DNA of 64,000 nucleotides from Gammaproteobacteria bacterium (lineage in GTDB: Bacteria; Pseudomonadota; Gammaproteobacteria; Pseudomonadales; IMCC2047). This document shows, piece after piece, positions 35,491-64,000 of the stretch. Each line of letters begins with the position of its first letter. Position 1 is the stretch's first letter. The notes below the pieces were generated by a model that made no database searches, was not told where the DNA came from, and saw only the letters and a program-made list of their open reading frames with translations. Made by a program: the position numbers and the translations under genes. The stretch covers positions 310,001-374,000 of the forward strand of contig JAJFKB010000002.1 of the NCBI GenBank assembly GCA_021773395.1, written 5' to 3'.

Positions 35491-36515
35491 TGAGAGAGAT
35501 GGAGAATGCCAGGAAGGCAGTAGAAGACGGGGTTAGGCCGGTGCATACCTTCAAGCAGGCCGCAACAAAATACCTGCAGGAAAATACGCACAAGGCCAGT
35601 ATCGGGATTGATGCCTGGCACTTGGAGTGGTTGGTCAGCTTTATTGGTGATCTACCCCTATCCCAGGTTCACAACGATACTTTGAGACCCTTTATTCAGG
35701 CAAGGCGAAAAGCGGGCGTTAAGAAGAAGAGCATTAATAATGGGCTGCAGGTGGTGAGGCGGATTTTGAACCTGGCAGCACGTTCCTGGCGGCACAATCT
35801 TGCCAATGGTCAGAGTATGACCTGGTTGGAAACCTCCCCCTTGATTACAATGCTCAAAGTGAATGACGCTGCTAAACCCTACCCCTTGAGTTGGCAGGAG
35901 CAGACAGAGTTATTTCGCTGCTTGCATCGGGATTTGGCTGACATGTGTTTGTTTATGGTGAACACAGGAACACGTCAGCAGGAAATCTGCCAATTGGAGT
36001 GGCAATGGGAAGTGCCGATACCTGAGTTGGAAACATCGGTCTTTCTTGTCCCTGCCTGGGTGTGGCGGGATGATGAGCAAGAACCCGATGGGGTGGTCAA
36101 GAACCGTGAGGATCGTTTGGTAGTACTTAACCGGACGGCACAGGCGGTAATTGAGTGCCGGCGCGGTATTCATGAGGAGAATGTGTTTTCCTATCGGGGC
36201 AAGCCCATTATCAATATGAATAATACCGCCTGGCAAAGTGCCTGGCGAAAAACAGAACTACCGGTATGCAATGAATTCTTGCGAGGTGTGCATAATTTGA
36301 AGCATACATTTGGGCGGAGATTAGAGGGAGCGGACGTACCGTATCATTTGCGACAGGTACTGCTCGGTCACAAAACGAAGGACGTGACAGAGCACTACTC
36401 AGCGGTGCAAATTAAGCGGTTATTGGATGCGGCAAACAGTATCCTGGACAATCCCCACGATTCCCCCACGGTGGCCTTGGTAAAAAGCCGGGGGATTAGG
36501 AAGCAGAGGAACTAA
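35346..36515 (+). CDS. Tyrosine integrase of the tRNA-Lys island
   Basis: The start at 35346 has GGGAG upstream and begins MPKRRIPGLYLKEGIWQIDK. The earlier codon at 35313 does not. The 389-residue enzyme has an arm-binding N-terminus, a core-binding domain (TFKQAATKYLQENTHKASIG) and a catalytic domain. Catalytic residues are Arg in NTGTRQQEICQLEW, His and Arg in HNLKHTFGRRLEG, His in LLGHKTKDVTEHYS and the Tyr that closes it. It should recombine the 21-bp core in tRNA-Lys. Its 3' end contains the right arm-type site, and it stops 24 bases from the tRNA. Confidence 0.95.
   Translation: MPKRRIPGLYLKEGIWQIDKYYKYFNGRRLRQSTGYGEADLDKAQAFLMREMENARKAVEDGVRPVHTFKQAATKYLQENTHKASIGIDAWHLEWLVSFIGDLPLSQVHNDTLRPFIQARRKAGVKKKSINNGLQVVRRILNLAARSWRHNLANGQSMTWLETSPLITMLKVNDAAKPYPLSWQEQTELFRCLHRDLADMCLFMVNTGTRQQEICQLEWQWEVPIPELETSVFLVPAWVWRDDEQEPDGVVKNREDRLVVLNRTAQAVIECRRGIHEENVFSYRGKPIINMNNTAWQSAWRKTELPVCNEFLRGVHNLKHTFGRRLEGADVPYHLRQVLLGHKTKDVTEHYSAVQIKRLLDAANSILDNPHDSPTVALVKSRGIRKQRN
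36453..36474. other. Right arm-type integrase binding site (candidate)
   Basis: CCCCACGATTC then CCCCACGGTGG lies inside the integrase 3' coding end and matches 14261-14282 at 21 of 22 positions in the same orientation. It ends 92 bp before the core at 36567. The codons (PHDSPT) are thus also recombination DNA. Confidence 0.7.
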
Positions 36516-53547: not shown

Positions 53548-54045
53548 TCAGTCTTGTTCGCAGGGATGACGCTTTGCCAGGCGTCGCTGGCTAAAAAACT
53601 TACTGATCATAGTCGAACACTCAGTCTCCAGCACTGCGCCAATTTCCTCAATCCGATGATTGAGGAATTCAGACTGAAGAAGCTGGGCGTTACTATCAAT
53701 CACTCCCGATTTGGGCTCCTTTGCTCCGTAAACCAGCCGCTTGATACGAGCATGGACCATGGCCCCTGCACACATGGTGCAAGGCTCTATAGTGACATAA
53801 AGGGTACAGCCTACCAGCCGGTAATTTTGAAGGCGCTGCGCGGCATCGCGCATCGCTACAATTTCTGCGTGGGCGGAAGGATCCGACGAGGAGATTGGCC
53901 GATTATAACCTCGACCGACAATTTCATTGTCTTTCACTACAACTGCGCCCACCGGTACTTCATCGTGCTCCTCAGCCTGGCGCGCCAACTGCAGTGCTTC
54001 ACGCATCCAAAATTCGTGGTTCGTCTCTTCAGATTCTTGCTTCAT
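53548..54045 (-). CDS. tadA: tRNA-specific adenosine deaminase
   Basis: TadA converts A34 to inosine in tRNA-Arg. The 165-residue protein has the zinc and proton-shuttle motif SAHAEIVAMRDA and PCTMCAGAMVHARIKRLVYGA, both intact, and the N-terminal FWMREALQLARQAEEHDEVP. In pseudomonads tadA lies close to guaA. Here a guaA-like 3' tail lies 70 bases upstream, followed by accessory DNA instead of guaA. Confidence 0.97.
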   Translation of the reverse strand: MKQESEETNHEFWMREALQLARQAEEHDEVPVGAVVVKDNEIVGRGYNRPISSSDPSAHAEIVAMRDAAQRLQNYRLVGCTLYVTIEPCTMCAGAMVHARIKRLVYGAKEPKSGVIDSNAQLLQSEFLNHRIEEIGAVLETECSTMISKFFSQRRLAKRHPCEQD

Positions 54046-54115: not shown

Positions 54116-54213
54116 TTACTCCCACTCGACAGCAAATAAACGATAATTTTACTTTAAATTCAGTTGATTACGATTACACATCGGACCTAATATCATAAAA
54201 AATACCACGCTCA
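54116..54213 (-). other. guaA 3' tail and attachment-like module, site A
   Basis: On the minus strand 54133-54116 reads GCTGTCGAGTGGGAGTAA, encoding AVEWE-stop, the usual GuaA C-terminus. The rest of guaA is missing. To its right begins a roughly 80-bp segment (AAATAA, then TTAAATTCA, then AATATCATAAAAAATACCACG) that recurs at 58141 and 60322 with the same spacing. It is the proposed left end of an insertion into guaA. Confidence 0.75.
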
Positions 54214-54224
54214 ATAATTTCATA

Positions 54225-54411
54225 GAGACCTTTGCATAATGTAGCGAGCGACGGTAAGACAAGGCAAAAATCGGCGGAAAAGCGGACGACTGCATGGATG
54301 CAGGAGTTAGAGTGACGCAGGAAGCCAAAGCCGAGTTTATACTTATAAATGAGCATTTTGAGCCGGTTTTCAACACAGTATTACCTAGCGTAGTAGTTAT
54401 GCAAAGGTCTC
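54225..54411. mobile_element. 187-bp MITE with 16-bp inverted ends
   Basis: GAGACCTTTGCATAAT at the left and GTTATGCAAAGGTCTC at the right are inverted repeats with one mismatch. TCATA is duplicated immediately outside both ends (54220-54224 and 54412-54416), the target-site duplication. There is no coding capacity. The ends resemble IS5-family or similar transposons, which would mobilise it in trans. Confidence 0.88.
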
Positions 54412-54465
54412 TCATAAAAATTTTAATTATCAGCTGAATAGGCGTACTGACCACTTTCTAAGACT

Positions 54466-54768
54466 TTAAGCTGCAATTGGCTTGGCCTTCTCAATTCGAG
54501 CTCGTCGCTTTGGTGTATTCCATGCCTTCCAAAGCTCGTTGCGCTGCTGCAGGTTCAACCAGAAATCAACGGTATTAGCGATAACCGTGGCCAGCATTAA
54601 TGCGGTATCCGCCGTGATGGTGCGACGATTAGTACACAACTCATTGACGGTTTTTCGACTCACACCCATCGCTTCCGCCAGCTTCACCTGGGTCAGACCC
54701 ATGGGCACAAGGAATTCTTCGGTAATCATTTCACCCGCACTAACCGGTTGTCGTTTCATCATACTCAT
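54466..54768 (-). CDS. higA: HigA-family antitoxin (partner toxin broken)
   Basis: The 100-residue protein has the HigA signature: PVSAGEMITEEFLVPMGLTQ, VKLAEAMGVSRKTVNELCTN, RRTITADTALMLATVIANTV and FWLNLQQRNELWKA. It represses its operon and binds HigB. The start could also be the Met three residues in. The upstream higB overlaps its start but carries a stop and a frameshift, so this antitoxin is probably an orphan, possibly protecting against related toxins elsewhere. Confidence 0.92.
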   Translation of the reverse strand: MSMMKRQPVSAGEMITEEFLVPMGLTQVKLAEAMGVSRKTVNELCTNRRTITADTALMLATVIANTVDFWLNLQQRNELWKAWNTPKRRARIEKAKPIAA

Positions 54769-55001
54769 AGCTCACCTCACCGTGCTCATCAGACCAAATA
54801 AACACTAGCCGCCACTGTTTATTGACACGAATAGAGTACTTCCCGGACAAACGACCTCTCAACTTTTCAAAAGGAATACTCGGCGGGTGACCGTAAGTCT
54901 AGATCACAGGTCGCGTCATCGATTTCAGCATGTGTCTTATTATCGGCCTTATCTTACAGATAAAAATCCAACAGCCAGCGATCCCTATAACTCTTGATCA
55001 A
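54740..55001 (-). pseudogene. HigB toxin pseudogene
   Basis: Reading from about 55001, the sequence gives LIKSYRDRWLLDFYL and then an in-frame TAA. It continues EIDDATCDLDLRSP, shifts frame by one base near 54886, and resumes PSIPFEKLRGRLSGKYSIRV, NKQWRLVFIWSDEHGE, ending just inside higA. This follows HigB/RelE toxins closely, so the toxin has been inactivated by two lesions while the antitoxin remains intact. Confidence 0.8.
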
Positions 55002-55054
55002 AAACAATCTCCCTATGCCTGCATCAATGCAACGTACCTGGTTACTTATTACCA

Positions 55055-55231
55055 CTATAACAACTGAACAATCGTCAGCAAAATACATTTTGATATCTGG
55101 CTTATAAGATAATCCCTGAAGATCACCAAATCGACGACTAGGCCAGTCCGCATGCGTTGCATCGGAGTAGCTTCATAAAACAGCGGATCGTCATTAGGCT
55201 TATTTAACCAAGCATCGGCTATTTCTTTCCG
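55055..55231 (-). pseudogene. DUF2384 (Xre/MbcA/ParS toxin-binding) antitoxin remnant
   Basis: The frame reads EIADAWLNKPNDDPLFYEAT, then MQRMRTGLVVDLVIFRDYL, close to the C-terminal domain of DUF2384 antitoxins that pair with RES toxins. It has no start. The preceding codons contain a stop, and an upstream frame (MMQRQVIQKPQATIAQYKVL) may be another piece. It lies directly behind the higB pseudogene. Confidence 0.55.
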
Positions 55232-55701
55232 AGGGAACAGGAATAGGATCTACAATACTTTGTATTGTGCGATGGTTGCTTGAGGTTTCTGTATGACTTG
55301 ACGCTGCATCATGCCTCGCATATTGGGAGTTTAAGTTCTGATTTTTAAGGTATTCATGGTGCCAAAGCCTGTTTCTGTGTCGAGCTAGAGAACTCTCAGG
55401 TCGCCTCTCGGATTGTTGCCTGTTGTTGTCTATCAGTGAGAGTGTTGTCCGGCACCAGCGCCAGTCAGCCTTTATCCCTTAGTCCTTAGTTTTTGGGGAA
55501 GAGGCGTAGGATTATGGACATTTGCACGGGGAAGGTATTTCATTCTACACGGGTTCCAACCGTTCAAGCCGGATTCTATCGCTGCGCATCGAAAGAGTAA
55601 TGTATACTATCCCTGATAGAGTTTTGAGCACCTTCATCTTCCTTACCTGCCACATTCAATTGGCAGGACAATGCAATAAGAAATATAGGAGAAGCAACCT
55701 T
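55232..55701. other. Intergenic stretch before the von Willebrand A gene
   Basis: About 470 bases show only the decayed end of the DUF2384 fragment and presumably the promoter of the next gene. Frames crossing the start of the next gene, from 55522, lack a ribosome site. Confidence 0.45.
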
Positions 55702-57873
55702 TTGAAAATTATCGCCGCCCTTATCACCGCGTTTTTCATCACTTCTTCTTTTGCTGCAGAAACGACTCTGGACGTACCTGATGAAGTAGGAATCAGGGGC
55801 TCCATTGAAGTTATCTGGAGCAGCCCCGAAACCTCCGGCGCAACCATACGCGTTTATAAACCGGATGATTCGGTAGTCGGCAGTTCCGGAGTTGGCTACC
55901 CGAATAGCGCGAAAGGAAATTCCGCGTATATGTTGGCACCGGAAGAACCGGGTGAGTATGTCATAAAGTTTCAGGCCAACGGTGAAACGCTGGCAAGTGA
56001 TACGATCACGGTTGTCATGGTCGAGGCATCGGTTGACGCGCCGGAATCGGTTCCAGCGGGCGCCAGTTTCGACATCATCTGGAATGGACCAAATAACCGG
56101 GGCGACTATGTAGGCGTAGCTGAACCCGGTGCCAACAAGCTCCTCAAAGGAGGGGCATACGCATACACAGGCAACTCCAAGGATGGCAGAGCTTCTCTCA
56201 CTGCTCCCGAAGAGTCAGGCAGCTACGATATCATTTATAAAACCGGCTCCACTATTCTGGCGCGCGACTCATTGCAGGTCACAGGCGTAAGCGCAAGCCT
56301 GGAAGGTCCAAAGGAGGGTTCAGCAGGCAGCGCCGTCACAATTACCTGGCAAGGGCCTGACAACAGTGGCGACTACATCACCCTCGCCAAGCGCGACGGC
56401 GATCGCATCCCCAAAACACACTATGCCTATACGGGGAACTCCAAAAATAACCAGGTCAATATCAACTTGCCTGAACAGGCAGGCGAGCTGGATATTATCT
56501 ATGTTACTCGCAGCGGCAATATTCTGGGGAGAATGCCGATCGCGATTACAGACACTAGCGCAACGATCAATGCAAAACCGGAAGCCGGAGCTGGCGCTGA
56601 CCTGGTCGTCACCTGGAGCGGCCCGAACAATAGCGGCGACTATATCGCTCTCGCAGCCCGTGATGGCGATCTCATTAAAGGCAGTAGCTATGCCTATACC
56701 GGGAATTCAATCGACAACGTAGTCACCCTGATCATGCCAGAGAAAACCGGCAACTATGACCTAGTGTACACCACCAAGAGCAGACGTATTCTGGCTCGCT
56801 CACCAGTAATGGTCAAGGAAGTGACGGCGACACTTGACGCCCCTGAACAGGTTCAGGGAAAACTGGAGTTTGAGGTTGAATGGGAGGGACCGGGGAATCA
56901 TGGCGACTGGATAGGCGTTATGGATCCAGGAGTAGCAAAACCACTGGCCTATCGCTATATCGATCCGTTGAAAGATCACGTACAAATAGTCGCACCGGAA
57001 ACACCGGGAGATTATCAACTGGTTTACCGCACGCGTGGTAAACGTGAACTCGCCACCAGGGCGATTACTATCACCCCAGCGGCCAGGGAACCTGGATACG
57101 TGCAGGTTACCCGGGACATTTCCAAGGGCTTTGGTGACGGCGCTGCAGTTGAAGTCATACTGGATGCATCCGGCAGTATGTTGCAAAAGCAGGGCAACAA
57201 ACGGCGTATCGAAATCGCGAAGTTGACCTTAACCCAGCTGATCCGCGATACTATCCCGGCAGATACAGGCTTCGCCATGAGAGTATTTGGTCACAGGGAA
57301 AGTGGCAGTTGTCGTACCGACCTGGAAATTCCCCTTGCCCCTCTCGACCCGCAAGCCGCCATCGCGGTCATTGGGAACATCCAGGCCATGAATCTGGCCA
57401 AAACACCTATCGGAAACTCCCTGGCACTCGTCGCACAGGATCTTGGCAACGTCACCGGTGAGCGAATAGTCATCCTGGTCACCGATGGCGAAGAGACCTG
57501 CGAAGGCGATCCAGCGCTGGCGATTAAGCAACTGCGCGACAAGGGTTGGGACATAAGAGTTAATATCGTAGGCTATGCCATTGATGATGACGCGCTAAGA
57601 GAGACTTTCAAGAGCTGGGCAGCACTGGGCCAGGGCCAATATCTGAATGCATCCAATGCGGATGAGCTGGCGACAGCAATCAGGCAGATGGTGGAAACCG
57701 TGTTCCAGATAATTGACAGTGAAGGCTCGACTGTGGCACGCGGCATGACAAACGACGCAGCATTGGAGTTGCCACCCGGTAATTTTACAGTGAAGTATTC
57801 TCTCGGCGGAAAAGTCCATGAAGCGATGGCCGAGATAAAGTCCGGAGAAACTGCGATAGTCGAATTGCCTTGA
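55702..57873 (+). CDS. Secreted protein with five Ig-like repeats and a von Willebrand A domain
   Basis: I choose TTG at 55702: AGGAG lies ten bases upstream and a signal peptide follows at once (LKIIAALITAFFITSSFAAE). The in-frame ATG at 55522 has neither. The 723-residue product has five repeats of about 84 residues with the consensus ITW-GP-NSGDY, AYTGNS and PE-AG-YDIIY-T. A vWFA domain follows (EVILDASGSMLQKQGNKRRI, IVILVTDGEETCEGDPALAI) with intact DxSxS metal site, then a short beta domain. Such proteins bind partners through Mg. It is exported to the periplasm or surface. No partner gene is obvious. Confidence 0.88.
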   Translation: MKIIAALITAFFITSSFAAETTLDVPDEVGIRGSIEVIWSSPETSGATIRVYKPDDSVVGSSGVGYPNSAKGNSAYMLAPEEPGEYVIKFQANGETLASDTITVVMVEASVDAPESVPAGASFDIIWNGPNNRGDYVGVAEPGANKLLKGGAYAYTGNSKDGRASLTAPEESGSYDIIYKTGSTILARDSLQVTGVSASLEGPKEGSAGSAVTITWQGPDNSGDYITLAKRDGDRIPKTHYAYTGNSKNNQVNINLPEQAGELDIIYVTRSGNILGRMPIAITDTSATINAKPEAGAGADLVVTWSGPNNSGDYIALAARDGDLIKGSSYAYTGNSIDNVVTLIMPEKTGNYDLVYTTKSRRILARSPVMVKEVTATLDAPEQVQGKLEFEVEWEGPGNHGDWIGVMDPGVAKPLAYRYIDPLKDHVQIVAPETPGDYQLVYRTRGKRELATRAITITPAAREPGYVQVTRDISKGFGDGAAVEVILDASGSMLQKQGNKRRIEIAKLTLTQLIRDTIPADTGFAMRVFGHRESGSCRTDLEIPLAPLDPQAAIAVIGNIQAMNLAKTPIGNSLALVAQDLGNVTGERIVILVTDGEETCEGDPALAIKQLRDKGWDIRVNIVGYAIDDDALRETFKSWAALGQGQYLNASNADELATAIRQMVETVFQIIDSEGSTVARGMTNDAALELPPGNFTVKYSLGGKVHEAMAEIKSGETAIVELP

Positions 57874-58308
57874 TGCTACCATAAGAGCAAAACGCAACCA
57901 CAAATGCCCTGACCATACCTCCACGCGCCCTCTTCCAAAAGGGCAAGGGCTGTGCTGTTTTTCGCGGTCCAGAATAAAGAGGCCCGGCTTAGGCGCGTCG
58001 AAGTAGTGCAGAGGCTATCCGGCCGCAGCCGGGCGACATAGTTGTGCTCTATCCCACCTCGCCGCTCACCGAAGGGAAGCCAATTGAACAGCGACAGATT
58101 CAATAATCATCACCATCACCGCGCTAGCAGTAAACTCCAGTCACTCCCACTCTATTGTAAATAAGGCTTTTTTGTCTTTTATATTCAATGGCTTATTTTC
58201 CTGCTAAACGGTAATACCATGAAAAATACCATGCTCAGAAAATCCTTCAAAATGTTCGATAAAATTGCCGATTGAACGCTGCCAAACCGCTCCCCGGGAT
58301 GATGTCGC
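57874..58308. other. Non-coding stretch containing site B
   Basis: No supported gene. The last part holds the guaA-tail attachment-like module at 58141-58238. The first 260 bases are moderately GC-rich with a few short hairpins of uncertain meaning. Confidence 0.5.
58141..58238 (-). other. guaA 3' tail and attachment-like module, site B
   Basis: On the minus strand 58158-58141 reads ACAATAGAGTGGGAGTGA, encoding TIEWE-stop, the standard GuaA ending. AAATAAGGC, TTATATTCAATGGCTTATTT and the doubled AATACCATG (12-bp period) follow to the right, at the same distances as in sites A and C. Confidence 0.75.
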
Positions 58309-59334
58309 TTACCCAGCATTCAGCCGGTTCTGGAAATCAGCGACTTCCTCCAGAATCTCCTCAAATGTTGGCACATCACCATAGAACATTTCCTGCTGCA
58401 TACTTTCATAATCGGCCTGCCACGCGGGGAGATCGGCGGCTGAGGGTGTCAGCTGCAGTTCCTGCGGATTTAGCGTCGAATAGTCGACCCACGTATAGCG
58501 GAAGAACACCTGACGATGCATGGCAATCCGATGGAATAGTCCGAGATCCCGGACAGATTCGTCACCCACTCCGGCCTGAATCATCCTGTAGATGTCATAG
58601 TAATGGCGGGCCATCGATCGTCGCTGCTTTTTCCTGGCCTCTGGACGAAATGTCTCCTCATGCAGCAGCATTACCTTTTCCAGGAATGTGCGCTCTGGCC
58701 GTACTGCTCTCACATCTGAACCTGGCTCGGTCAGTAATTCCGGGAAGGCTTCTCTGATATAGGGCGTGATCTCGACGGATGCAACAGGCTCTGTATCTGA
58801 CCGGGCGCCCATCTCAATCTTTACGGCACGGCGGAGATAGGCGGCCTGCTCCGGGAAGGCCGTTGGATACAACAACAGCAAGGTCTGTTCATCGGAATCG
58901 TCGGGATCAGGCTCAAGCGACCATTCGAGTGTGTCCGGTAGATCTAATGAGATCGATTCGAAGAGTGTCGGTTGAATCTGATCACTGATACATTGCTGGC
59001 AGGCTTCTTTCAGCGCCTTGAGACGCTTGGTCATCTGTTTCCTGCTGGGTGCTTGTTCCGGGGCATTTTCTCCACCAAAACCCAAGGCTTCCCTGTCGAT
59101 AACGATATCGATATCTTCGGAAAAACGTTCGATGAGATTCCAGCACTTGGATAACGACGTACCACCCTTAAACGTCAGATGTTTGCCCCATTCGGGCAGA
59201 CTGAACAATTTGCCCAGCGTCCAACAAACCCAGAAATCCTTTTCGACGGCAATCTCGAACAGATTCAGTTGCGCGCCCGTCTCCGTACAGACGAGCCGGC
59301 GACGTTCTTCCGACATCTCAATAAATTCTTTCAT
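58309..59334 (-). CDS. AbiEii/AbiGii-type nucleotidyltransferase toxin
   Basis: The 341-residue protein is the toxin of an AbiE (type IV) system, acting against phage by blocking cell growth when activated. Nucleotidyltransferase residues are visible in [20 protein letters not shown] (GGTS at 57-60) and SEDIDIVID (acidic pair at 74-76). [20 protein letters not shown] is the family's basic helix. Its start overlaps the upstream antitoxin gene by 4 bases. It fills most of unit 2 of the insertion array. Confidence 0.92.
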
Positions 59335-59954
59335 GCTGCGCTTTCCCGATCGGCCAGTGAACGAAAGATATCGGCGATCCAGGCCGGGGCATATCGAATA
59401 TCCTTTACCAGTTGCTTGCGTGCATCGTCATCGAGCCGACGATCGAGCTGTGTGATGACTTGCTGATCGACGTTCTTCCGGCCCAGGTGGCGCAGTGCCT
59501 GGATCACCAACCCACTGATCTTTCCCGCAGTGGCCATATTGCGGGGAGTCGTGTGCTTCAGGATGATCTGGCGCTTGCCAACCTGGACAGTCCGCGAGCG
59601 ACCATCCGTTAAATAAACGACCCTCATGGGGACTTGCGTGGAGAGTCCAAGCAAATTGGCCGCGTAGGCCCCGGAGGGTTGAAGCCGGGTAGCGTCGCGA
59701 CCTGCAAGTGCGCTCGCGATATCATCCGTCGATGGTTGCAACGGACCCAACTGGGGATCAATTCTCGGGTAATCGTACAGTCCCCGGGCCAGCTGGCGGA
59801 TAAGGCCGCTGTCCCGATGCCGCATCAGTGCAAGATCGACAGCCCCGCGGGTACCAAGATCCGTAAAACTGTCGGGCGTAAAGACCCAGCCCCGCTTGCG
59901 GCCCTGAATCCGGCGGAAGATCTTGCTGTCGGTACTGTCTGCGTGCTTGCCCAT
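59331..59954 (-). CDS. AbiEi-type antitoxin/regulator (DUF6088)
   Basis: Starting at the ATG at 59954 ([20 protein letters not shown]) the product is 207 residues. An upstream TTG at 59990 would begin inside the operator. The N-terminal winged helix ([40 protein letters not shown]) binds DNA and the rest counters the toxin. A perfect 13-bp inverted repeat lies 2 bases before the start, the expected autorepression site. The toxin gene follows with a 4-base overlap. Confidence 0.9.
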
Positions 59955-59956
59955 AT

Positions 59957-59992
59957 TTTTGAAAGAAAAGTGTATATCTTTTTCTTTCAAAA
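59957..59992. promoter_or_regulatory. Operator of the AbiE operon
   Basis: TTTTGAAAGAAAA (59957-59969) and TTTTCTTTCAAAA (59980-59992) are perfect 13-bp inverted arms with a 10-bp spacer, ending 2 bases before the antitoxin start. AbiEi proteins are known to repress their promoters through inverted repeats. Confidence 0.8.
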
Positions 59993-60464
59993 TAAAAGCG
60001 CTATTCAGGCCCTCTGCGTCTGTATGAGTGAGCGCGGGGTAAGGTCGGGCAGTGCCTGAATGGTTTCTGAACTTTTGCAGGCCGAAGGATAGGTCTCGAT
60101 AGTGGTCAGATTACTGCTGTCACTCCAGACGCCGCACTCCGGTATCTTCGGCGCAAAACAAGCAAGGACGCGCATCCCCTTCGTGGTCTGGGAGCCGATC
60201 ATGTCTTTAATGGCCGAAAGCAGGCTGAGGCCTTGCTCGACAGGTAATGCTCAGTCCGGCTGATACCATGCCAACATCAATCTACCCCTCATAGTATCAC
60301 TGGTTTTTACATTACAGTGCGCAGGAAAACGCCAATTGTAAACAGGCCATTTTCCAGCATTATTTTCAATTGTTTATTTATTGGTGCAGGTGAGAATACC
60401 ATGCAAAATACCATGTTCAGCATTTACTGCTAATCGATACGGTAATCACCAATTCACACGTGCA
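59993..60464. other. Non-coding stretch containing site C
   Basis: A 65-codon minus-strand frame (60005-60202) resembles nothing I know and lacks a ribosome site. The right part is the third attachment-like module at 60322-60420. Confidence 0.45.
60322..60420 (-). other. Attachment-like module, site C (guaA tail lost)
   Basis: AATTGTAAACAGGCC, TTATTTTCAATTGTTTATTT and AATACCATGCAAAATACCATG match site B in sequence and spacing. The 18 bases where the guaA tail should be (60322-60339) are different, so only the inner part is conserved. Confidence 0.65.
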
Positions 60465-60887
60465 TCAACCACTTTTGCGTTCAACCATGCGGCCGGCGAA
60501 CTCCTGCCTCTCAAAGACCAGATGTTTGAAAGCGCCGAACACATGCAGAACCACCGCAACCAGAACGGCCTTCGCGGCGACCACATGAACCACTTCAAGT
60601 GCCTCGTGCAGGGACTCCATTTTACCGGTCGGGCTCGGTATCGAAAACCAGGTTAAAACCTCGATGGCCCGATCACCGGTCCACACTGCCAGCGGGCCGG
60701 TGACGATAAGCACGCTGATACCCAGTAACAGGACGACGTGCACAAACTGCGTCAGACGTTGCATCGCCACGGGTTGCTTGAAGGCCGCAGGGCCGTCGCT
60801 GAACATCCTCCACAGCACGCGAAACGCAAGCGGTGCGAACACCAGCGCGCCGATGGCTATATGCAGTTTCGGGAATTCCAGGGACAC
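60465..60887 (-). pseudogene. Cytochrome b561 fragment lacking its first helix
   Basis: The 140-codon frame, starting GTG, gives LHIAIGALVFAPLAFRVLWR, VHVVLLLGISVLIVTGPLAV and EVVHVVAAKAVLVAVVLHVF, i.e. helices 2-4 of a cytochrome b561 with some haem His residues. The N-terminal helix and its His are absent. The upstream sequence is unrelated, so the gene was truncated near 60888. It could have been an electron carrier for a periplasmic or membrane reductase. Confidence 0.7.
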
Positions 60888-60953
60888 CCTACATAATCAG
60901 GGACAATCAGGATGGCAGAAATATTGATGTATGGTATTCACATGGCTTTACAG

Positions 60954-62288
60954 TTATCGCATCTCGAAAAACTCGCGATGAAAGTTTGCCGCCGGTAGTC
61001 CGTTGGCCAGAAAATCCTCACGCAGGGCATCACCGAAAGCCGCGGGCCCGCAGAACCAGACACCCGTCGAACGCCATTCCGGTACTAATTTACGGATTCG
61101 CTCACCCGTCAGGCGGCCATCCTTTGGTGTAACGAACAGATGCAGTTTTACGTTAGCCGCTTCAGCATCGGCCGTAAGCTTGTCAATCGCCGTCTGGTCA
61201 AAATCCGTCGTCGCATGGAACAGATCGATCTCCTGCTCGCCCAGCGTGTGGGCCAGATGCTTCATTCACGCAATAAACGGTGTAATGCCAATGCCACCCC
61301 CAATCCAGATCTGCCGTGATCGACCGTCATTGAAATCGAAACAACCGTAAGGGCCTTCCACGGAAACCGGCATACCCACTTTTAGTCTGTCGCGCAACCG
61401 ACTCGTCCAGTCACCCAACCCCTTGGTTATAAACGTCATCCTGTGCTCTTCCGGATTCCACGCAGAGGCAATGGTGTAAGGGTGGGCACCCTCACGTTTG
61501 TTGGATGTGACAAATGCGAACTGCCCCGGTACATGCCCCTGCCATCCGTTGCCCACATCGAGAGTGCCTTCTATGACGTTCAGTCCTGGATAGTAAGTCA
61601 CTGACTCGATGACACCTTCCGCTTTGCGTCTGGCACCCACTTGGCCAGTCAGTACCAGCAAAGCCGACATGGTTCCCCCCAGCATCAGGATCGCCAATAC
61701 CCAGCCGACAGGTTGCGACCAGTAGCTAAACTGGGTAAGAACAACGGTGTGAAACACCACCGCCAGGTAAGCAATCGCAAGCCAGTTATGGGTTTTTCTA
61801 AACAGGTGATACGGAAATTTCTTTATCAGTGCAAGAACAATGAGAATCGCCACGATATAGAACACCCATTCACCAACAGATTCGGCCAGACCGCGCTGGC
61901 TCCGCAGCAATTCTTCAGGTGCTGAGAGCATCTGCTCAATGACTGGTTTGCGCTCGGGTTTTGTCAGCCAGCCCCAGCCGACCATCCACTTGGTACCCTT
62001 CGCCCACCACCAGTGAACCGTTGCAACAACCAAGGCCGTGACGCCAAGCCATTTGTGCAGACGGTACATCTTGTCTAGCCCGTTCAATGGACGCTCGATC
62101 AGTTTTGGCCGTAGCGCAAGCAGCATTGCCGCGCTCATGACACCGATGGCGACCACCCCGGTGTACTGGACAAATACACCACGAAACGAAAAATAGTTGA
62201 ATGGTTCTGGTATTAATGTGTCGGCGAACAGCCACAGCGCACTTAGTGCCAGCAACAGTCCCCAAAAACTGAGTTTGATCTTGCTCAT
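60954..62288 (-). pseudogene. Ferric reductase-like transmembrane flavoprotein, split by one stop codon
   Basis: The 445-codon frame encodes a ferredoxin-reductase-like protein with six membrane helices (about 5-215). FAD- and NAD-binding domains follow (AHPYTIASAWNPEEHRMTF, VSVEGPYGCFDF, IWIGGGIGITPFIA). A TGA at 61266-61268 falls where Arg is expected (GITPFIAR-MKHLA), then reading continues in the same frame to STGVWFCGPAAFGDALREDF. This looks like a single CGA-to-TGA change. The protein would otherwise move electrons from NAD(P)H to haem and iron. Confidence 0.85.
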
Positions 62289-62302
62289 AGTGAAATATGA
62301 TC

Positions 62303-62655
62303 CTATGCGTTTGCTATCCTCAGAATCGGCTTGATGGTTTTTCCGGTTTTTGAGTCTTCGAACGCCTGGTCGATGTCCTCAAAATCGTAAATACCCACTA
62401 ACCTGTCGAAAGGTAACAGGCCTTTTTTATGATAATTCACCAGTTCGGGAAGTATCATCTGTGGCACGGTGTCGCCTTCAATAACGCCTATCAATGCCTT
62501 GCCTTCGGCCATAATTTCTTGCTGAATGTTTGAACGTCACTTCACCGGTAAAACCAACAATGGCACATTGACCCAGTGGGCGCAGACCTTGAACAGCCTG
62601 CTTGACCACCGGCGCAACGCCCGTTGTATCGATTGCATAATGCCGAGCATGAAGA
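62303..62655 (-). pseudogene. Zinc-type alcohol dehydrogenase remnant with frameshift
   Basis: The minus strand reads AIDTTGVAPVVKQAVQGLRP, LGQCAIVGFTGEVTF, and then one extra A near 62529-62531 shifts the frame. It continues QQEIMAEGKALIGVIEGDTV, PQMILPELVNYHKKGLLPFD and ends IKPILRIANA. This is the C-terminal third of an MDR alcohol dehydrogenase of the aryl-alcohol type. The zinc-binding N-terminal half is absent. The gene is dead. Confidence 0.8.
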
Positions 62656-62813
62656 GTACCAGTGCCGCGACAGTGATTCAACCTGAAGATCAAACCGTAG
62701 CAATCCAGCGTGTCGCGCAACGACACATCGTTAGCGCGAGGGTTTAACGGAGGATTCATTGTGTTCGATTCAGAAGTCATGGTGTTTCTCCTTGTCATCG
62801 CGTGCATTGGAAA

Positions 62814-64000
62814 CTAGCGAGCGACCGCAATCGCATCAGGCGCGCTGTCGGCCTCCTGCCAACCGCCCCCGAGCACTTTGTAGAGGGTCACAAGATTGGT
62901 CGACCGTGAAAGTTGGGTAGCGATCAGGTTTTTCTGGGCACTGTAGAGCGCGCGTTGCGCGTCGAGCACGTTGAGATAGCTGTCGATGCCGCCGCGGTAG
63001 CGTACCTCGGACAGTTGGTAGGTCACTGCGGTGGCATCCGTCAGCGAACGCTGCGCAGCGAGTTGATTGTCAATGTTGCTACGCAAAGCAAGCGCATCGG
63101 CCACCTCGCGGAAAGCGGTCTGGATGCTCTTCTCATACTGCGCCACCAGCATGTCGCGCTCGACCTCGGCGACGCGCAGATGGGCGCGGTTGCTGCCAGC
63201 GTTGAAGATCGGCAGCGTCACCTGCGGCAGGAAGCTCCAGGTGCCGGAACCGGAGGCGAACAAGCCCGACAGACTGTCGCTGGCAGTGCCCGCGCTGGCG
63301 GTGAGCGTGATGCTCGGGAAGAACGCGGCACGCGCCGCGCCGATGTTTGCATTGGCGGCGCGCAGGCTGTGTTCGCTCTCACGCACATCCGGACGGCGCA
63401 GCAACACCTCGCCGGGTATGCCTGGCGTCAGCTCCGGCATCGCGGTGTGCAGCATATCCAGTGTTGCGGGAAGCAAGTCACCGGGAACAGAAGTGCCCAG
63501 CAGCAAGGTGAGCGCGTTGCGATCCTGCGCGACTTGGGCGGTGTATACCGCAACGTCCACGCGCGCGGCATCGACACTGGTCTGCGCCTGGCGCATGTCC
63601 AGCTCGGAGGCCACGCCCACGTCGAAACTGCGCTGCGTGAGTGCGTAGGATTCATCCTGACTGCTCAGTGTTTCCTGCGCCAGGCGCAGGCGTTGCGCGT
63701 CCGCGCTCCAAGTCAGATAGGCGGTTGCAACTTCGGCGATCAAACTGATATGGGTGCTGCGGGTGGCCTGTTCGCTGGCCAGGTATTGTTCCAGCGCCTG
63801 GTCCTTGAGACTGCGCACGCGACCGAACAGATCCAGTTCCCAGGAAGAGAAACCGAGATCGACGTCATACTGACTACTGGTGTACAGAGCGCCGGATTGG
63901 GTAGACAGCGCGCGTGAGGCGCTGCGGCCAGCACTGGCCTCGACGGACGGCAACAGGTCGGCGCGTTGGATACGATACTGCGCGCGCGCCTTTTCAATGT
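62814..64000 (-). CDS. Outer-membrane efflux channel, NodT/OprM family (cut by window edge)
   Basis: The frame is open to the right window edge, so the N-terminus is missing. The visible part begins [20 protein letters not shown] and continues through two coiled-coil/barrel repeats ([60 protein letters not shown]) to [20 protein letters not shown]. It is the TolC-like channel of an RND or similar pump. The sequence is much richer in G and C, with strong GC3 bias compared with the rest of the window, indicating recent transfer. Confidence 0.92.

Follow-up and report, generated by a model that had tools for sequence, protein, structure and literature searches.

The stretch of DNA analysed here, referred to as the window (64,000 nucleotides), contains what is very probably, at roughly 0.8, the left-hand part of an array of five units that is seated in the guaA 3' end and bordered by tadA on its other side. 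With much the same confidence, the array would be a GIsul2-type cassette system at guaA. The stepwise addition of integrase-less units by an integrase acting in trans, as proposed in an earlier note on this DNA, is supported, such units being widespread and often carrying the cargo types that the note named. The proposal needs amending in that the integrase lies in the same array; GIsul2 with its CR2-sul2 unit provides a precedent (PMC9376610).

Attachment modules between tadA and guaA

The attachment module consists of an 8-bp core, TCCCACTC, approximately 60 bp that include an IHF-like site, and a doubled arm site, AATACCATG. On its left side the array is bordered by chromosomal tadA, an ORF on the minus strand (53548..54045) whose start lies 75 bp from the core of module A. 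Module A (54116..54209, plus strand) comprises the guaA tail, the core TCCCACTC at 54120 and a degenerate doubled arm with 3 mismatches, and at 38 bits is the weakest module of the array, as compared with 106 bits for module B (58141..58233, plus strand), which has its core at 58145-58152, an IHF-like segment and the doubled arm AATACCATGAAAAATACCATG. Module B is also the left end of a block shared with Sedimenticola selenatireducens. Module C (60326..60415, plus strand) has an intact doubled arm and has lost the core, the profile match beginning where the core would end. Modules D and E lie outside the window on the same contig, at 69370-69462 and 95135-95224 in the numbering of the window, and a separate arm cluster adjoins the integrase. 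The source genome is a draft, in which assembly error at repeated modules is possible. Of the three modules described in the earlier note, the order of motifs stands for all, with 55, 54 and 55 bases in A, B and C when counted from the first base of AAATAA (in C, AAACAG) up to the doubled motif, and the 18-base guaA tails of A and B, translated from the minus strand, do read AVEWE-stop and TIEWE-stop; what does not stand is C as a full module.

Base composition would predict 1.8 copies of AATACCATG across 195 kb and both strands; there are 11, of which 10 are inside modules or between the integrase and guaA. Core plus arm was found in 20 of 370 genomes, the source genome included, and its reversed-pattern control in none of the 370; given both results, the modules were rejected as chance repeats. 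The order of the array was also considered as an age clock and dropped, there being no steady trend in module score along eight arrays. The scores show no steady fall away from guaA and so do not support end-wise growth.

Integrase, cargo and the shared block

The intact guaA that was expected to the right was found 134 kb away on the same contig (188572-190149 in the window frame, minus strand), and beside it, approximately 0.3 kb from the guaA stop and 127 kb to the right of site C, lies the integrase that was likewise expected. This tyrosine integrase (187046-188263, minus strand) is in the right-most unit next to an AlpA-type factor (186805-187083; Pfam Phage_AlpA, E 2.8e-12), and the earlier statement that no integrase is local is correct for the 4.0- and 2.2-kb units. 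The integrase has an Arm-DNA-bind_3 domain (Pfam E 7.2e-20), unlike the IntI type, which is not known to have an arm-binding domain.

Unit A-B measures 4.0 kb, B-C 2.2 kb, D-E 25.8 kb and the unit from E to guaA 93 kb. Four units are without an integrase (A-B, B-C, C-D and D-E, with C coreless), and P (integrase-side) arm sites are absent from all four, which would therefore depend on core-plus-P' reactions. Unit A-B encodes a HigA-type antitoxin (54466..54768, minus strand; Pfam HTH_3, E 9.7e-9), the DNA of which is 78.6-81.4% identical to array-unit stretches in three other genomes (four contigs). Its toxin partner looks broken, the frame translations giving an interrupted HigB-type remnant at 54769..54960 (minus strand, bounds approximate). 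The unit further encodes a protein with a C-terminal VWA domain (55522..57873, plus strand, start uncertain; Pfam VWA, E 4.1e-6, residues 545-716). A MITE-like element is also present. Unit B-C encodes the nucleotidyltransferase toxin AbiEii (58309..59334, minus strand; Pfam AbiEii, E 4e-41) and the AbiEi antitoxin (59331..59990, minus strand; Pfam DUF6088, E 3.4e-52; PADLOC AbiEi, E 4.9e-71). The start of unit C-D (60465..63953, minus strand), which runs on to module D at 69370 in the window frame, holds cytochrome b561, ferric-reductase-like and outer-membrane efflux genes (Pfam, three ORFs).

The 11.2-kb block from B to D has a counterpart of 99.7% identity in S. selenatireducens, which belongs to another order; the identity begins five bases before one core and ends at the end of the other. 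There is no break in this identity at site C, whose counterpart in S. selenatireducens has the same doubled arm and spacing. Site C is, judging from its sequence, a dead junction, its core being lost, and units B-C and C-D would consequently be inherited as one block. Given that the 134 kb have an integrase and AlpA at one end, they could be one composite island that moves only as a whole, excised between module A and guaA, with the internal modules as by-products of nesting. This scenario is highly improbable for two reasons: first, S. selenatireducens shares B-D and not the whole; second, arrays without any integrase exist, such as that of OFTM226 (tadA-1018 bp-1325 bp-guaA). A further alternative is that RecA-dependent recombination between modules of about 100 bp shuffles the units and that the integrase served only for the first insertion. 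The modules are repeated and similar, perhaps sufficiently for homologous recombination, yet the shared block has each of its boundaries at the octamer and neither within the remainder of the module, and GIsul2 units moved in recA- cells (PMC9376610), making this the least probable of the alternatives considered.

The module in other genomes

Copies of the module also bound tandem units at guaA in members of the Gamma-, Beta- and Alphaproteobacteria, and the predicted tie of the module to guaA held elsewhere: guaA was to the right and antisense in all 19 testable records, and tadA, on the same strand, was to the left in 13 of 13. Among 29 further loci from the order, 8 have a tadA match that begins 17-117 bp from the guaA end, a short spacing that is likely the empty arrangement. 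The core was found within 110 bp of 25 of 32 arm sites and at exactly 68 bp in 22 of the 32 (20 stretches, picked by arm and not by core); the same 68-bp spacing in 24 aligned modules is a product of selection, the unselected count being that of the 32 arm sites. The doubled arm alone, with up to 2 mismatches, matched 59 of 294 genomes and its reversed control 9 of 294, and part of the 59 is therefore due to chance; after this control, core plus arm or a profile was used. At least 116 stretches matched in the contig scan and 80 loci were read. Before units were counted, 17 short loci that duplicate larger stretches were set aside and one of them was restored. IHF-like sites were counted over 142 modules, near-identical ones of the CR2-sul2 type included.

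Subtracting 12 units of the CR2-sul2 type from 95 closed units leaves 83, of which 81 lack an integrase to the profile used and 2 have one; 13 closed units are on a single contig of Sedimenticola BM503. Among the families listed (the best 25 of 97, 93 and 254), those that units of at most 5.6 kb commonly carry include ParDE, VapBC, HigA, AbiE, Fic and DUF4143. The family searches covered 137 ORFs (144, less 8 that were overlapping, doubtful or not locatable, plus the HigA ORF), called by a mechanical longest-ORF rule that includes spurious ones and counts related units repeatedly.

A third alternative is that the units are former full islands, each with an integrase and both arm regions, inserted serially, that have lost their integrase by deletion and no longer move on their own. 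Many units do have one arm region only, modules A, C and E score low, and unit A-B contains an interrupted toxin along with its MITE-like element. Nevertheless, this explanation is unlikely, if less so than the two above. In 27 of the 83 units, 20 of them below 5 kb, the integrase-side doubled arm is at its usual place and the integrase is absent, and apart from the source genome's own integrase no integrase N-terminal remnants were found in units beyond chance-level matches; decay older than detectable remnants is possible. Furthermore, similar units occur in unrelated neighbourhoods: in 24 pairs of shared units across records, left flanks were unrelated in 18 of 21 testable cases and right flanks in 21 of 22, these pairs being non-independent (about eight cargo types, with five VapBC-type units yielding ten pairs). 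Of 20 arrayed draft genomes checked, 16 yielded no close integrase, and movement there would need a lost or visiting helper, or be over.

Relation to GIsul2 and to other systems

The integrase is 82.5% identical over 395 aa to that of the GIsul2 gene set on pAB3, where the same modules flank both ends of the transposase-sul2 part. Both systems use the guaA 3' site and the octamer GAGTGGGA (reverse complement TCCCACTC), and both have an AlpA-type factor and arm sites adjoining the integrase. They differ in that GIsul2 has one integrase-less unit (ISCR2-type transposase plus sul2) and the present array four, with cargo that includes toxin-antitoxin and defence genes here and among the 13 closed units of Sedimenticola BM503. 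The backbone of GIsul2 comprises repA/repC and trbJKL. The GIsul2 integrase was shown to excise and integrate an integrase-less unit, the CR2-sul2 circle arising from attLR x attR and integrating into attB, and a guaA island of Aeromonas caviae is cited as having two CR2-sul2 units (PMC9376610). The same paper reports that the attL x attLR circle was undetected, indicating that not all site pairs work, that circles required nested PCR and that deletion of alpA made no significant difference (PMC9376610).

In the favoured explanation, each unit starts with a module that combines a core, the guaA-tail octamer, with an IHF-type bend site, at which IHF would bind, and two integrase arm sites, resembling a BOP' site of lambda. 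Were the system to work in this host, the octamer would be cut and rejoined by the GIsul2-family integrase, which has an arm-binding domain and is encoded, together with an excision factor of the AlpA type, in the unit nearest guaA. Any unit flanked by two modules would leave as a circle carrying one module, and the circle would recombine with the guaA tail (attB), placing the unit beside guaA and rebuilding the guaA stop. Since addition would proceed through a circle and attB, an integrase within the unit itself would be unnecessary, provided that a helper island was there when the unit moved.

Cassette arrays of integrons are also tandem series of small units, often of one gene or a toxin-antitoxin pair, with one site per unit, and arrays without an integrase exist there too; IntI, however, is not known to have an arm-binding domain and recombines folded attC sites, whereas the recombinase here is arm-binding, the sites are core-plus-arm and the target is guaA. 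CIMEs, deletion derivatives of ICEs that have att sites and no integrase, accumulate in tandem at one site and are moved by helpers. They share with the present units two att ends and the lack of an integrase and differ in that many units here are cassette-sized and one module is conserved across classes. In Dehalococcoides, many islands likewise share one gene end and 16 of 31 are reported to have the integration module, in another host phylum and at another target gene, ssrA (PMC3146451).

The expectation that the module belongs to guaA held only in part outside these loci: among 72,556 plasmid records, 3,921 match module B (at 90-95% identity in 3,902 cases), and in one of the latter that was examined the match adjoins sul2, a widespread sulfonamide-resistance gene, as in the CR2-sul2 unit. 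One recombinase family may thus move guaA units and sul2 alike. Among the papers listed from the open-licence PMC literature, none concerned by its title toxin-antitoxin arrays at guaA or the module as a family, and for toxin-antitoxin cassettes at guaA the GIsul2 paper alone looked relevant by title and start of abstract. Other guaA papers exist (e.g. PMC7775301, PMC13418153).

The conserved module makes unit ends predictable, such that a pattern search could list the units of any genome. The array suggests how small defence and toxin-antitoxin operons gather at one chromosomal spot and how, lacking their own integrase, they may spread from one order to another. It also gives a broader context to the mobility of sul2. 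It is possible, at about even odds, that Proteobacteria have a second, non-integron cassette system, in which a family of guaA-specific arm-binding integrases would build long arrays out of units with no more than an attachment module and, often, a single toxin-antitoxin or defence operon. Such arrays would outlast the integrase, as do integron cassette arrays that lack one, and sul2 would be a unit of this environmental system that escaped to plasmids.

Attachment modules and the guaA locus

The earlier note had described three attachment modules in the window, A (54116-54209), B (58141-58233) and C (60326-60415), and both their reality and their layout are borne out; two more lie to the right, D at 69370 and E at 95135 (window-frame positions, which run on past the right end of the window). 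From left to right, the order is the 8-bp core TCCCACTC, about 60 bp, a doubled arm motif AATACCATG and frequently then CTCAGAAA, and the reverse complement of the core, GAGTGGGA, is the guaA tail. Scanning with the general IHF consensus places an IHF-like site (no more than one mismatch) in the spacer of 115 of 142 modules against about 10% in shuffles, a count that takes in near-identical modules of the CR2-sul2 type, named after the integrase-less unit of the guaA island GIsul2. In 20 stretches picked for the arm, not for the core, there are 32 doubled-arm sites; a core lies within 110 bp of 25 of these, exactly 68 bp upstream in 22 cases. The integrase is adjoined by a second type of end, where arm motifs occur singly, inverted and doubled to the left of the guaA core. 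Given that 10 of the 11 occurrences of AATACCATG in 195 kb fall within the modules or this integrase-side end, the integrase probably uses this motif as its arm site. About 180 bp past the doubled arm are also alike (79-85%) between CR2-sul2-type units and some others, the sharers of this ~280-bp head being L049 (G180), L190 and L187 (Sedimenticola sp. BM503), L194/L195 (a Ctena symbiont) and L199 (MAG OFTM226); owing to this similarity, the common head may extend beyond the module as defined.

The source assembly, in which the window covers C2:310001-374000, is a 3.80 Mb draft of 26 contigs (completeness 98.89%) with a single genome-wide match to the guaA C-terminal family. Extension to the right, as the earlier note had proposed, reaches an intact guaA (188572-190149, minus strand) at a distance of 134 kb from site A, with an integrase about 0.3 kb from its stop. 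On the left, 75 bp separate core A from the start of tadA (54045, minus strand). Among 29 other loci of the order, 8 have a tadA match that starts 17-117 bp from the guaA end, so the stretch from A to guaA reads as an insertion; in the remaining 21, with at most 1.5 kb examined per locus, tadA was not seen near the guaA end, and in two of these an integrase match takes its place.

The integrase and the units that lack one

The integrase is a 405-aa tyrosine recombinase (187046-188263, minus strand) with Arm-DNA-bind_3 and Phage_integrase domains, adjoined by an AlpA-family gene. Its top identity to plasmid matches is 82.5%, and the top-match plasmid examined, pAB3 of Acinetobacter baumannii, carries integrase, AlpA, repA/repC, trbJKL, ars genes, an IS91-like transposase and sul2, a set taken to be GIsul2. 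There, the module profile finds two modules (40 and 96 bits) flanking the transposase and sul2, and arm-like motifs adjoin the integrase. A second tyrosine recombinase domain, within the window at 35940-36410 (plus strand; C2:345940-346410; open frame of 413 aa), has no apparent link to the array.

Units, the DNA between consecutive modules or from the last module to guaA, number 95 when closed, 12 being of the CR2-sul2 type. The remaining 83 range in size from 228 bp to 93 kb, with a median of 3.1 kb, and two of them hold an integrase by profile, the right-most unit of the source genome and one in G222, both adjoining guaA. Of the 83, 27 also have an integrase-side doubled arm, about 94 or 90 bp ahead of the following core or guaA end; 20 of the 27 have the inverted site too, and 20 are below 5 kb. 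Among 20 arrayed draft genomes searched, four have a close integrase (82-85% identity), 11 gave distant or fragmentary matches, mostly at 23-36% (G307, 42% over 110 aa; G305, 64% over 42 aa), and nothing matched in five.

Arrays in other genomes and signs of movement

A search of other genomes for the module, with a listing of the DNA between copies, had also been proposed, and it found guaA-linked arrays of integrase-less units. Of 370 genomes of the class, 20 contain the exact core-plus-arm pattern, source genome counted, and none contains the reversed control. The exact pattern also occurs in at least 116 stretches among the genome contigs searched, its carriers among the matches listed being Gamma-, Beta- and Alphaproteobacteria as well as a single MAG with the label Phycisphaerae. 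A module scoring above 40 bits is present in 85 records, and the stretch analysed includes guaA or tadA sequence in 33 of them; guaA lies right of the module and antisense in all 19 records where this can be judged, and tadA is on the left, on the same strand, in all 13. Sedimenticola sp. BM503 has 13 closed units on a single contig, S. selenatireducens DSM 17993 a seven-unit array terminating at guaA, and OFTM226 a minimal array of tadA, 1018 bp, 1325 bp and guaA. Extra fragments of the guaA 3' part (~70-130 codons) lie within or past arrays in three genomes (L048 11754-12011, L061 11731-11943, L051 19287-19687), as if some units carried the donor's guaA end.

The block from B to D (58141-69381) has its counterpart on contig 6 of S. 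selenatireducens, where 4,292 bp align at 99.65% identity and 7,060 bp at 99.72%; the guaA proteins of the two genomes share 73.7% amino-acid identity, and Sedimenticola is placed in Chromatiales. Identity starts at GTCAC ahead of the left octamer and ends on the last base of the right one, and site C, its core lost, is not used as a block boundary between the two. A 1.07-kb S. selenatireducens segment (L184 12675-13744), absent from the window, splits the otherwise 99.7%-identical unit C-D and is possibly an insertion element. In a comparison of 24 unit pairs from different records, with at least 75% coverage of both units, the left flanks are unrelated in 18 of 21 testable pairs, and the same holds on the right for 21 of 22. 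The B-D block, through its two halves, accounts for two of the four exceptions. The CR2-sul2-type unit (3,288-3,292 bp) recurs in 11 records, with an identity to the E. cloacae copy of 99.8% or more in every case. Module B is matched in 3,921 of 72,556 plasmid records, 3,902 of them at 90-95% identity, and lies 205 bp upstream of sul2 in one record examined.

Cargo and the GIsul2 precedent

Family searches covered 137 ORFs from units of up to 5.6 kb. The first 25 of 97 Pfam families include DUF4143 and AAA_14 (9 each), Fic, PIN and DUF4172 (7 each), AbiEii and ParE (6 each), ParD and DUF6088 (AbiEi; 5 each), SEC-C and HTH_3 (4 each) and MazE (3), as well as LysR-type regulators (3) and glycosyltransferases (2). 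Among the matches listed, PADLOC gives PDC-S01 (9), SoFic (7) and AbiEii (6), and NCBIfam VapC (7), ParD (5) and HigA (3). By eye, many ~1-kb units are one toxin-antitoxin pair plus the module. Source-genome cargo was identified in A-B, B-C and the first part of C-D. In unit A-B, the HigB-type partner of a HigA antitoxin (54769-54960) is seemingly interrupted, which would make the antitoxin an orphan. Directly to the right of module A lies a 189-bp MITE-like element (54224-54412) whose terminal inverted repeats, AGAGACCTTTGCATAA, are perfect over 16 bp; this element has nine near-full copies (87-97% identity) and further partial ones elsewhere in the genome.

For GIsul2, Zhang et al. (PMC9376610) describe excision of the CR2-sul2 unit by attLR x attR and, in recA- cells, insertion of this unit into attB, a movement that needs the integrase and att sites; from the donor plasmid, attR x attB was the main route. 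They found that nested PCR was necessary to detect circles and observed no attL x attLR circle; alpA deletion made no significant difference, and over-expression made movement more readily seen. By analogy, the same logic would explain the array: a one-module circle would recombine with the guaA tail, leaving module, unit and tail, and recurrence of such insertions would therefore give tandem modules, with integrase-side arms present only in the island that brought them. We infer that such movement occurs in the source host.

The proposal that small integrase-less units were added by an integrase acting in trans is largely right, with GIsul2 as its precedent. The array amounts to a large relative of GIsul2 that carries a different load, and not to a new principle. 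Specialists would be surprised by how widely the module is spread, by the ~1-kb toxin-antitoxin units, by the integrase-free arrays, and by the inclusion of sul2 as one member.
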